This document shows positions 37,794-44,560 of a stretch of DNA of 64,000 bases, piece by piece; the first letter of the stretch is position 1, and every line of letters starts with the position of its first letter. The stretch lies in contig JABLXG010000001.1 of NCBI GenBank assembly GCA_013178165.1, forward strand, positions 205,605 through 269,604, read 5' to 3'. The notes beneath the pieces were generated by a model. The model did not search any database. It saw nothing but the letters and a program-made list of their open reading frames with translations, and was not told where the DNA came from. The DNA is from Anaerolineae bacterium (GTDB lineage Bacteria; Chloroflexota; Anaerolineae; Aggregatilineales; Ch27). A program made the position numbers and the translations under genes.

Positions 37794-38753
37794 TCAAGGG
37801 GCCTGCTGGCGGGCGGCCTCTTTCTCCACTGCGGCGCGCATCCGCGCTTCTCGCATGGGCAGGAGGGCGATCAGGCCCAGCGCCCCCATATCCGCGAACA
37901 GCATCGGCGCCAGGAATGGTGCACCGCGTAGAAAGCGCTCCGGCACGATGATGCTGCGGGTTGCCAGGCCGGCCCGTACATGCAACAGGAAGCCGATCAA
38001 CCCGACGATGATCAGGGCGATCATGGCAGCGATCACGGTGATGGTATCGCCCCGGCCCGGCTTTTCCAGCATACCGTAGGCGATCATGGCCACCGTGGCG
38101 AAGACCCCCACCAGCGTTGGCAGCCATACCCACAGGTTCTCAAAGTTGAAGCGCCCGTGATCCAGCACGCTGCTCAGCAGCGTGGCCAGAATGCCCAGCC
38201 CGACCCAGATACAATACTGGCGGGTCTTGCTGAAGGGCACGCGCCAGCTGAACAGCCCCGGTACGACCATCCGTCCGCTGTCCGGCGGGTCTTCCACCGT
38301 AGCAGCGATCACGCCCAGCACGCCCACCAGCGAAAAGGTCAGCGGGCCGATGATCGGCGGGGCAAACACCAGCAGGGCCAGGGCGACATCCGGCGTGCCC
38401 GGCCCGCTTGGGGGAATCGCCCGTGCCACATGGAAGTACGCGCCCAGCAGCCCGACGACGATGCTGGCGGCCAGCACGGCAAACGCCAGCAGAATCGCCG
38501 TCGTGCGGCGGCGCAGGGAGATTGCCCCGGCGATCAGCAGGACCAACCCTGCCGCCGGACCAAACACGATCGGGATCATCTCATACGGGCGAATGGTGCC
38601 GTTCATGCTGTGGGCCAGGTAAATGTCCAGCCCCAGGAAGGCCAGGTTGAGGGCCACCATAAGCATCATGATCTGCCCCCGCGTGATCCCCAGGCGGCGC
38701 CCGGCCAGCACTATCCCCGTCTCTGTGATCTGCCAGTTGCTATTCAGGATCAT
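37794..38753 (-). CDS. Eight-helix membrane protein with fourfold TM-His repeat
   Basis: 319 residues, about eight membrane helices and a soluble C-terminal tail. The only four histidines, H48, H108, H199 and H258, each sit at the end of an odd-numbered helix (LAHSM, YFHVA, LDHGR, LLHVR). Each is followed by a loop and a Pro-containing helix (IPIVFGP, APPIIGP, WLPTLVG, APFLAP). The spacings 60, 91 and 59 suggest a duplicated pair of two-helix units. It lies 75 bp after the octaheme cytochrome on the same strand. I infer a quinone- or haem-binding partner of that cytochrome; I do not recognise the family. Confidence 0.75.
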   Translation of the reverse strand: MILNSNWQITETGIVLAGRRLGITRGQIMMLMVALNLAFLGLDIYLAHSMNGTIRPYEMIPIVFGPAAGLVLLIAGAISLRRRTTAILLAFAVLAASIVVGLLGAYFHVARAIPPSGPGTPDVALALLVFAPPIIGPLTFSLVGVLGVIAATVEDPPDSGRMVVPGLFSWRVPFSKTRQYCIWVGLGILATLLSSVLDHGRFNFENLWVWLPTLVGVFATVAMIAYGMLEKPGRGDTITVIAAMIALIIVGLIGFLLHVRAGLATRSIIVPERFLRGAPFLAPMLFADMGALGLIALLPMREARMRAAVEKEAARQQAP

Positions 38754-38828
38754 GGTTCTGTCCCAGCATGCCGCCGGGGGCAGGGCCGCTATACGGCGGC
38801 GACCCTGTCCCCGGCGCTCCCGGCAGGT

Positions 38829-40133
38829 CTAGTCTGACCCGCCTCCGGATTCAGTCTCGGCGTGGCGCGGGTGGACGTATCCTGGCAGGTGTTGCACCGC
38901 ATACTCGCGCACTTCGGCCAGGGCCTGCAGAACTTCGTACGCGCCATGCCACTGCGCATAATCCGGCCCCTGCATCCACACGCCGAACTTGGCCGTGCGG
39001 CCCCAGTGATGCCACAGCTCATAGATGGCAAAGTCGATCGGCTCGTCGAACGGCTCGGCGGTCAGCGCACCAGCCTGCAGCAGCGCCACACGCAGGTCCT
39101 CGCCCTCCTGTGTCCACTCGTTGACGCGTTCGGTGGCGGCGTCGGCGGCAGTGTAGAAATCGTCCACAAAGTTGGGGTTGTGGCATTCCATGCACACCGT
39201 CTGCATGCGCACCTTGTTATCCGTCCAGGCCGGGCGGCGGGTGGAGACCGGGTCAAAGAGGAACCAGGTCAGGCGGTCGCCGACATCGTGGGTGGTGCTG
39301 GCCGCGCCGATGCCGCTGATGTGGCAGATCGCACAGGTGGCCGCCGGGATGTCCTCGACCGTGATCAGGCCCGGTTCGGCTTCCCAGTTCCAGGTGTGGC
39401 CCATCGTGTGGTAGGCGATGCCGTGCGGCGATTCGGTGTAAATCTCGTACTGCGGATGATCGGGGCCGATGTGGCAGAAGTTGCAGGTTTCTGGCTTGCG
39501 GGCCTGTTCCAGGCTGAACTCGTGGCGCAGATGGCACATCTGGCACTCACCGGCGGAGCCATCCTCATGCGGGCGACCAATGTTGTGGCAGCCGTAGCAG
39601 GTGAAGCGGGTGATGGCGTCGCCTTCCAGCGCCGCGATCGCATTGCGCGATTTGTCCGGGCTGGGCTGGCCTTCGGCGATGCTCAGGTACTGGGCCAGGT
39701 GGGTTTCGCTCAAATCCTGCGACCCGGCCACGGCCACATAAGCGGGCAGGCCATGGCGGCTGGCGTTGAACTGGGCCACCTCCTGCGCGTGGCACTTCTG
39801 GCAGAGCGCCGGGGTAGGCGAATTGACCACGTAAGTGCCTTCATGCGCGATGGCGTTGGGATAATCGGCGGCGACCACGTGGCAGTCCTCGCATTTGACG
39901 TTGGCGGCAGCCATTGTGCTGTGGCCGTACTGCTGGACAATGCCCGGCGTGCTGTTGGCGTGGCACTGGACGCAGGGATTGGTGCTGCCCACCAGCACAT
40001 TCTGGCGGACGATGGTCCCGCCCTCGATGCGCTCAGTAGACACCGGGCGGAAGATCACCGCCAGCACTGCGGCCAGTCCGATAAATACGATGGTGACGAC
40101 AACGGCTGTGATCAACACGCGCTGTCTTGACAT
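38829..40133 (-). CDS. Octaheme cytochrome c, hydroxylamine oxidoreductase family
   Basis: 434 residues. An N-terminal membrane anchor lies at about 7-28. Eight CXXCH sites begin at C54, C81, C111, C179, C197, C217, C267 and C314. Blocks such as ASRHGLPAY, CNFCHIGPDHPQYEIY, SPHGIAY and TTHDVGDRLTW are those of the HAO family. Members oxidise hydroxylamine or hydrazine, or run in reverse as nitrite or hydroxylamine reductases. I cannot tell whether the cross-linking Tyr of oxidative HAO is present; PDYAQWHG near residue 390 is the place to check. An FNR-type site lies 97 bp upstream. Confidence 0.88.
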   Translation of the reverse strand: MSRQRVLITAVVVTIVFIGLAAVLAVIFRPVSTERIEGGTIVRQNVLVGSTNPCVQCHANSTPGIVQQYGHSTMAAANVKCEDCHVVAADYPNAIAHEGTYVVNSPTPALCQKCHAQEVAQFNASRHGLPAYVAVAGSQDLSETHLAQYLSIAEGQPSPDKSRNAIAALEGDAITRFTCYGCHNIGRPHEDGSAGECQMCHLRHEFSLEQARKPETCNFCHIGPDHPQYEIYTESPHGIAYHTMGHTWNWEAEPGLITVEDIPAATCAICHISGIGAASTTHDVGDRLTWFLFDPVSTRRPAWTDNKVRMQTVCMECHNPNFVDDFYTAADAATERVNEWTQEGEDLRVALLQAGALTAEPFDEPIDFAIYELWHHWGRTAKFGVWMQGPDYAQWHGAYEVLQALAEVREYAVQHLPGYVHPRHAETESGGGSD

Positions 40134-40230: not shown

Positions 40231-40244
40231 TTGATCTAGATCAA
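40231..40244. promoter_or_regulatory. FNR/DNR-type operator TTGATCTAGATCAA
   Basis: Exact match to the Crp/Fnr-family consensus TTGAT-N4-ATCAA and a perfect 14 bp palindrome. It lies between the divergent octaheme gene (start 40133) and the methyltransferase gene (start 40394). A Crp/Fnr-family regulator is encoded at 41148-41840. Confidence 0.75.
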
Positions 40245-41147: not shown

Positions 41148-41840
41148 CTATTGCATCGCCATCATGCGCAGCAAATCTTCCCGCAGGACGCGGATCGCGC
41201 TGCGCTCGGTGGCGATAATGCCCGCCCGTTCCAGGGCGCTCAGGGCACGGCTGAGCGTTTCCGGCGTGGTGGCCAGGTGAGCGGCGATGGCCGTCCGGGT
41301 GATGCTGGGGCCGCTGAGGGCAGGGTTCTCCAGTTGCTTGAGCAGGAAGCGGGCCAGGCGGGTGGTGACCGAATGTAACGCCAGGTCTTCTACCTGCTGA
41401 ACCAGTTCGCGGGTGCGCCCGGTCAGCACCTGAATCACGGTCATGGCCAGCTGGGGATCGGCCATGATTGCGGCGCGCAGGGCGGTGTGAGGCAGGCAGC
41501 AGGCGATGACCTCGCTGAGTGCGGCGGCGTTGGCCGGGTTGGGGCCGCCATCCAGGGCGGCAATGTCGTTGCAGGAATCGCCCGGCCCCACTAGGTGCAG
41601 GATGTGCTCGTTGCCTTCGGGACTGACTTTGAAGATTTTGACCCGCCCGGCCTGAATAAGCCACAGTCCGGCGCTGGGTTCCCCTTCCCAAAAGAGCACT
41701 TCGCCAGCGGCCAGGGCGTAACAGCGAGCCGCCGCAGCCAGTTCCTGCAGTTGATCGCCGGTGACACCACGGAAGTAGCGATGCTGGCTCAGCTTCTGCG
41801 CCAGGGCGGTATCCGGCAGGGAACGCGTGATGACAATCAT
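41148..41840 (-). CDS. Crp/Fnr-family transcriptional regulator
   Basis: 230 residues from ATG 41840; a TTG 30 bp upstream is the alternative. The N-terminal cyclic-nucleotide-binding-like beta roll (RYFRGVTGDQLQELAAAARC...GEVLFWEGEPSAGLWLIQAGRVKIF) is joined by a dimer helix to an HTH_Crp domain (ITRTAIAAHLATTPETLSRALSALERAGII). No N-terminal cysteine cluster of the FNR 4Fe-4S kind is seen, so a DNR/CRP-like sensor (haem, NO or small ligand) is more likely than a true FNR. It is a good candidate to act at 40231-40244. Confidence 0.9.
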   Translation of the reverse strand: MIVITRSLPDTALAQKLSQHRYFRGVTGDQLQELAAAARCYALAAGEVLFWEGEPSAGLWLIQAGRVKIFKVSPEGNEHILHLVGPGDSCNDIAALDGGPNPANAAALSEVIACCLPHTALRAAIMADPQLAMTVIQVLTGRTRELVQQVEDLALHSVTTRLARFLLKQLENPALSGPSITRTAIAAHLATTPETLSRALSALERAGIIATERSAIRVLREDLLRMMAMQ

Positions 41841-41882
41841 GGTGACCTGGTTTAGAGTCAAGACAGCCAAGCGCCGGAAGCG

Positions 41883-43399: not shown

Positions 43400-44560
43400 A
43401 TGGGTGTCACCACCGCCTCTGCCGCCCCGCGGGCCGCTGCCCGGTCACAGGGGAGCCTCTGGCTGCGGGACCGCAACTGGGACCTGGTGTTCATCACCTT
43501 CAGCGTGATCTGTGTGCCGTTGCCCTACCTGGTTTACCTGCTGTTGCGCGATCGGTTCGGCGTGCACGATGATGTCGCCCGCAACGGCGTCAACGCCTTT
43601 GTTGCCATTGCTGTTGGCGGTCCGCATATGATGTCTACCTTTTTGCGCACAGGGCTGGATAGCAGTTTCCGCGCCCGCTACCCGATGCTGATCCGTTCAT
43701 CGGTCATCATCCCGATCATCGTGGTTGCCCTGGCCTTCCTCAACCTGACCCTGCTGCTGACGGTGTTCTTCTTCTGGGCGGCGCTACATGTGCTGCACCA
43801 GGTGACGTATATCGTCGAGCTGTACAACCGGCGGGAGCAGGACACCGGCGTGCCAGCGCGTCGCAGCGCTGTGTCGCTCTCTGCCCGGCTGGTGGACTAT
43901 GCCGTGATCCTCACCTGCCTGTTCCCGATGGCGGCCTACAAGATCAGCCAGGGATCGTTTGATATCGGCGTGAATGACCTGACCCGCGTGATTCCAACCT
44001 TCTTCCAGCAGACGTGGTTCTTCGTGGTGATGAGCGGCGTTTTTGCCCTGGCGCTGGCTGCATATGTGATCAAGACCATCCGCGAGATTCGCGGCGGCTA
44101 TGTCCACTGGCCCAAGACGATCTTCATCAGCCTGACGGTTGCGGTGGCCTTTACCATGCCGGCCCTGCCCAACCTGGATACTGCCTTTCAGGGTCTCAAT
44201 ACCTGGCACTCGTTCCAGTACCTGGCCCTGACCTTCTACATCATCAAAATCCGCGCCCGCTATGGGGAACTGCGCCAGTCCGCACCGCTGGTGGCCCGTG
44301 CCGCTGAACAGGCCAGCGACTCGCGGGGCCTCTATGCCCTGAGCGCGCTGATGCTGGTCGGCTCGCTGGTGGTCTTTGGCGTCGTCTACCTGCTGACCGG
44401 CATCTTCCAGCCGGGCAGCATCGGCACGGCGGATATCGCCAACTGGCGCTTCGATGTCGCTTATTACACGGCGATTCTGTCCTTTCTGTGGATTCACTAC
44501 TATCATGATCATTTCCTGTTCACCGATTTTGAGGCGCTGACGCCAGGACGCAGCCGCTGA
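43400..44560 (+). CDS. Polytopic membrane protein with histidine clusters
   Basis: 386 residues, about eight or nine membrane helices. AAAGGAG lies just before the ATG. Histidines are clustered at helix ends: H76 (GGPHMM), H130-x2-H133 (ALHVLHQ), H270 (NTWHSFQY), and H366-x2-H369-x-H371 (IHYYHDH). The pattern recalls membrane di-iron hydroxylases/desaturases or Blh-type oxygenases, but the spacing does not match one family I can name. A terminator follows directly. Confidence 0.65.
   Translation: MGVTTASAAPRAAARSQGSLWLRDRNWDLVFITFSVICVPLPYLVYLLLRDRFGVHDDVARNGVNAFVAIAVGGPHMMSTFLRTGLDSSFRARYPMLIRSSVIIPIIVVALAFLNLTLLLTVFFFWAALHVLHQVTYIVELYNRREQDTGVPARRSAVSLSARLVDYAVILTCLFPMAAYKISQGSFDIGVNDLTRVIPTFFQQTWFFVVMSGVFALALAAYVIKTIREIRGGYVHWPKTIFISLTVAVAFTMPALPNLDTAFQGLNTWHSFQYLALTFYIIKIRARYGELRQSAPLVARAAEQASDSRGLYALSALMLVGSLVVFGVVYLLTGIFQPGSIGTADIANWRFDVAYYTAILSFLWIHYYHDHFLFTDFEALTPGRSR

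Follow-up and report, generated by a model that had tools for sequence, protein, structure and literature searches.

A candidate quinone-linked octaheme reductase operon with an undescribed eight-helix membrane partner in Anaerolineae

Octaheme enzymes stand at branch points of the nitrogen cycle, where their connection to the quinone pool decides between reduction and oxidation and governs energy conservation. In a 64,000-nucleotide stretch of an Anaerolineae genome (contig JABLXG010000001.1, positions 205,605 to 269,604, hereafter the window), a gene for an octaheme cytochrome of the hydroxylamine oxidoreductase (HAO) superfamily precedes a gene for a polytopic membrane protein, which raises the question of what the membrane protein does and in which direction electrons would flow. 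On sequence comparison we read the locus as a quinone-linked octaheme reductase operon whose membrane protein is the quinol-side subunit, and we put the probability of this reading at roughly 0.6. A quinone-linked octaheme module is known as such; the eight-helix partner is new and its family is undescribed.

The octaheme cytochrome and its control region

The octaheme gene (positions 38829–40133, minus strand) encodes a c-type cytochrome of 434 aa, with a single hydrophobic helix as its N-terminal anchor and eight CXXCH motifs (cysteines C54, C81, C111, C179, C197, C217, C267 and C314). Together with these motifs, a match to profile PF13447 (97 bits against a cut-off of 21.9, E = 1.5e-27) places it in the HAO superfamily, and in a profile search of the PDB the best solved relatives were the octaheme 4qo5 and hydroxylamine oxidoreductases including HAO 1fgj. 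We take 4qo5 to be IhOCC, the octaheme cytochrome c of Ignicoccus hospitalis, and we know of no eight-helix partner for it. This best match to a solved structure is distant in sequence, and a title cited in PMC8840924 reports IhOCC as membrane-associated.

Both the heme 4 motif and the active-site Asp-His pair of the HAO superfamily were found in the alignment. The CXXCH at C179–H183 (39585–39599, minus strand) aligns with CTMCH of 1fgj and matches the catalytic heme 4 (P460) of HAO, while Asp225-His226 (39456–39461, minus strand; invariant in A2 and A3) is the counterpart of the active-site Asp267-His268 of Nitrosomonas europaea HAO, and both motifs are invariant across 23 diverse octahemes. 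Reductive epsilon-Hao enzymes carry a Trp where oxidative HAOs have a cross-linking Tyr, plus a Met eight residues before it (PMC8940962). The octaheme carries this signature as Met387-x7-Trp395 (38949–38975, minus strand), again invariant in A2 and A3, which suggests a Trp at the key Tyr position, an equivalence resting on the published motif spacing. The profile alignment between the octaheme and HAO ends before the region of Tyr467, the residue cross-linked to heme 4 in N. europaea HAO, and an invariant Tyr392 lies close to the motif. A 422-aa open frame antisense to the gene (38862–40130, plus strand) is most likely a shadow of its high-GC coding sequence.

The perfect palindrome TTGATCTAGATCAA (40231–40244), an FNR/DNR-type box, precedes the octaheme start by about 100 bp. 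Only four sites of this type occur in the 4.19-Mb genome, and a near-identical box was present in 5 of 59 upstream regions of the octaheme clade, against an expectation of 0.014. A Crp/Fnr-family gene (41148–41870, minus strand; PF00027 and PF13545) encodes a candidate regulator of the operon, and Crp/Fnr genes were also detected near the octahemes of L098, L099, L102, L140, L142, L146 and L148. The box and the neighbouring Crp/Fnr genes suggest that the octaheme operon is under anaerobic or NO-linked control.

The eight-helix membrane protein and its pairing with the octaheme

The membrane gene (37794–38753, minus strand; 319 aa) follows the octaheme gene after 75 bp on the same strand. A first-pass annotation had described a membrane-anchored octaheme and, at this distance, a novel polytopic protein with eight helices and four histidines; both reading frames are confirmed, and each element of that description held. 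The AlphaFold model (pLDDT 82.6, pTM 0.82) has eight transmembrane helices, and the protein contains exactly four histidines (H48, H108, H199 and H258), each 100% conserved in 35 relatives. Profile comparison of its N and C halves (probability 97.3, E = 2e-11) reveals a tandem four-helix repeat in which H48 is equivalent to H199 and H108 to H258, giving one His pair per unit. In repeat 1 the codons of His48 (38610–38612) and His108 (38430–38432) fall at the ends of TM1 and TM3, and in repeat 2 those of His199 (38157–38159) and His258 (37980–37982) fall at the ends of TM5 and TM7; all are on the minus strand and all four residues are also invariant in the GMC-linked branch of the family described below.

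Diagonal histidines at equal depth on helices 1 and 3 of a four-helix bundle, as in cytochrome b, are a usual bis-His heme b layout, and in each repeat the pair here most probably binds a single b-type heme or lines a quinol site. Loop charges in the octaheme-linked subfamily (K+R about 13.5 on one side and 5.9 on the His side) would place all four histidines on the outer side of the membrane, the side of the anchored octaheme.

Profile and sequence searches of Pfam, NCBIfam and the PDB gave no family match for the membrane protein, and its 35 relatives were without Pfam matches to known redox families. A Foldseek search of the model against solved folds returned nothing at E ≤ 0.001, and the best VIA-align matches were only middling (rhodopsins, Z 7.7), which we attribute to common helix packing. 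Identity with the NapC/NrfH/cM552 quinol dehydrogenases was rejected because the protein has eight helices and neither PF03264 nor a CXXCH motif, and identity with the cytochrome b of Rieske/cytochrome b complexes or with cytochrome b561 because neither PF00033 nor PF01292 matches. NrfD/PsrC, with eight helices in two four-helix bundles, gave no Pfam match and is absent among the Foldseek and VIA-align matches listed, though its fold may still be shared. Another polytopic protein near the pair (43400–44560, plus strand; 386 aa) has no Pfam or NCBIfam match.

A survey of gene neighbourhoods bore out the conserved pairing that the first-pass annotation had proposed to look for. In all 57 octaheme-bearing relatives among 151 related genomes, the octaheme gene is followed directly, on its own contig and strand, by the membrane gene (p about 1e-39), a result that rejects chance neighbours, and two further genomes hold just weak traces of the membrane gene. 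Across a class-wide sample of 298 genomes the octaheme clade was present in 29 and the membrane gene in the same 29. Genomes of the window's order and class of Chloroflexota (Anaerolineae-type) commonly carry the pair, and a single operon is the best explanation of the two genes' arrangement. Most relatives have a gap of −4 to +5 bp, mostly 2–3 bp, the 75-bp gap being confined to the window's family and a few others. Read-through of the stop to join both genes was rejected, as the in-frame gap is coincidental and most relatives are out of frame.

Within genus g180, one genome (G422) retains only an octaheme fragment and another (G364) only a fragment of the membrane gene, with both genes retained in other members, and these fragments fit a joint decay of the pair. 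The sole related octaheme found without the membrane gene inside the eight-helix clade is that of G486, a genome of another class. At L134:6844–8732, in another class, a clade-I-like octaheme without an eight-helix gene adjoins a rubrerythrin-like gene. For a model of the complex, the two chains were linked by substituting Gly for the stop, solely for modelling purposes, with paired rows where the genes are in frame; the resulting AlphaFold model (pTM 0.47) speaks neither for nor against a complex. A limited literature search found no description of the octaheme/eight-helix pair.

Membrane partners of related octahemes

Other octahemes of the same class have different partners. Sister octahemes have a PF03264 NapC/NrfH tetraheme gene directly upstream (E about 1e-27), others adjoin Rieske (PF00355) and cytochrome b (PF00033) genes, and in a third type CopD-like helices and a cytochrome b5 domain are fused N-terminally to the octaheme. 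Each partner type forms its own clade in the octaheme tree, except for G486 inside the eight-helix clade; we leave the order of the clades unclaimed because long branches meet in this tree. Octaheme HAO-like genes beside Rieske and/or cytochrome b genes are found, for example, at L144:3727–6984 and L151:4083–6532, and the CopD-like/cytochrome b5/octaheme fusions at L136:6050–8266, L137:5973–8258 and L138:5751–7982 are single proteins of 740–760 aa. The NapC/NrfH-linked octahemes (clade II) belong to a related clade, share the active-site residues and likewise have Crp/Fnr genes nearby, but they are lipoprotein-like with the tetraheme gene upstream, whereas the window's clade has the eight-helix gene downstream.

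NapC/NrfH-type cytochromes are the proposed quinone partners of HAO (PMC3701875), hence the eight-helix protein most likely has an equivalent function. Through this exchange of partners among sister octahemes, a role of the membrane protein as the octaheme's putative route to the quinone pool, suggested by the first-pass annotation, is well supported by comparison. The locus resembles the reverse hydroxylamine:quinone redox module of Nautilia and Campylobacter (epsilon-Hao with NapC/NrfH/cM552) in its HAO-superfamily octaheme, its Met/Trp signature and a membrane partner proposed to link to quinone (PMC3701875, PMC8940962). The partner in that module is a one-helix tetraheme, in contrast to the eight helices, four histidines and lack of c-type hemes seen here. 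NrfA was not found in the window's genome, and the single PF03264 match there is a partial domain within another multiheme protein. The same genome has a second multiheme cluster (L159:1–3237), in which a 7-CXXCH fragment is followed by a protein with a NapC-like N-terminus and eight CXXCH motifs.

The wider membrane family and the direction of electron flow

A survey of the phylum detected distant homologues of the membrane protein that match one or both four-helix units. A Gluconate_2-dh3 gene adjoins the membrane gene at 20 of 21 such loci (the exception is a truncated contig), a GMC oxidoreductase gene comes next at nearly all of them, and a multiheme cytochrome lies beside the homologue at none (0/21). 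In hhalign, this GMC-linked branch aligns with the octaheme-linked family at a probability of 99.2 (E = 9e-20), and the four histidines all match. This GMC arrangement recurs on plasmids of Acidobacteriota, Deinococcota, Actinomycetota and Pseudomonadota, where the membrane gene is annotated as "hypothetical"; the Frondihabitans and Deinococcus homologues consist of one four-helix unit with its His pair kept, and the window's protein matches the Granulicella homologue by tblastn (E = 4e-9). The membrane proteins of these operons are homologous to the window's with all His conserved, but the enzyme beside them is a flavoprotein dehydrogenase that has no c-type hemes and apparently no signal peptide. 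The Gluconate_2-dh3 subunits also lack signal peptides and the topology of the branch is ambiguous, hence the family may not always act from the outer face.

The membrane family is therefore not exclusive to multiheme cytochromes, but the GMC association still fits a redox or quinone role. Wide occurrence of the family without a multiheme neighbour had been named in the first-pass annotation as what would refute its proposal; it was found for the family overall, in the GMC-linked branch, whereas the octaheme-linked subfamily is strictly paired. Tentatively, and at somewhat less than even odds, the four-helix His-pair family, single or duplicated, may constitute a general quinone-reactive and probably heme b-binding subunit that bacteria have joined to at least two unrelated enzymes, namely HAO-type octaheme reductases in Chloroflexota and, in at least five phyla, GMC flavin dehydrogenases.

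In the reductase operon that we favour, the membrane protein would draw electrons from (mena)quinol and hand them to the octaheme, which is membrane-anchored and extracytoplasmic. At its HAO-like heme 4 site the octaheme would then reduce nitrite, nitric oxide or hydroxylamine. The first- and third-helix histidines of each repeat would lie at the outer membrane face, beside the octaheme. By analogy, this would be the hydroxylamine:quinone redox module in reverse, with the NapC-type subunit swapped for an unrelated, duplicated four-helix protein. We infer the physical complex, the binding of heme b or quinone, the direction and the substrate. The first-pass annotation had suggested a module for hydroxylamine, nitrite or a related compound and gave no direction; the epsilon-Hao-like residues, like the FNR-type box, speak for reduction, with nitrite, NO or hydroxylamine as candidate substrates.

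Electrons could also run the other way, as they do through the forward hydroxylamine:ubiquinone module in ammonia oxidisers: the octaheme would oxidise hydroxylamine, NO or a related compound, and quinone would receive the electrons from the membrane protein. Conservation of the HAO Asp-His and heme 4 site would suit such an enzyme, an aa3-type oxidase in the genome could accept the electrons, and the same wiring is able to carry current both ways. However, the reductive Met/Trp signature is invariant, the nearest sister octahemes have NapC/NrfH-type partners like quinol-driven reductases, and the FNR-type box suggests anaerobic control, and we consider oxidation improbable. It is likewise doubtful that the membrane protein carries no electrons and is instead a factor for assembly, heme delivery, substrate transport or anchoring, its His pairs binding a metal or substrate. 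A general accessory role would permit relatives beside so different an enzyme as a GMC dehydrogenase, and is in keeping with the absence of a match to any known redox family and with a linked-chain model that predicted no complex; yet sister operons have established quinone-side electron carriers in the same slot, and the GMC partner too is a dehydrogenase requiring an electron sink.

Many bacteria are known to use multiheme conduits for extracellular electron transfer, and the octaheme might similarly pass quinol electrons supplied by the membrane protein to extracellular acceptors such as metals or other cells, rather than act as an N-oxide enzyme. No nitrogen-cycle genes were identified beside the pair in the examined part of the window, which would agree with a conduit, but the conserved HAO active-site residues and the FNR/DNR box indicate a small-molecule enzyme and make this very unlikely.

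As a quinol-linked reductase, the pair would represent a further pathway for nitrite, NO or hydroxylamine, overlooked in annotation since the membrane partner is labelled "hypothetical", and it suggests a so far unrecognised part of the respiratory wiring in many Chloroflexota. If the membrane family is redox-active, its members would also be candidates for taking up the electrons of GMC dehydrogenases in widespread operons without a cytochrome subunit. The operons at L160–L164 and L109–L128 encode a TPP enzyme, an enolase-superfamily enzyme, a hypothetical 4- or 8-TM His protein, Gluconate_2-dh3 and a GMC oxidoreductase. This arrangement occurs in Acidobacteriota, Deinococcota, Actinomycetota, Pseudomonadota and Chloroflexota, in some cases near glycoside hydrolase or SDR genes.
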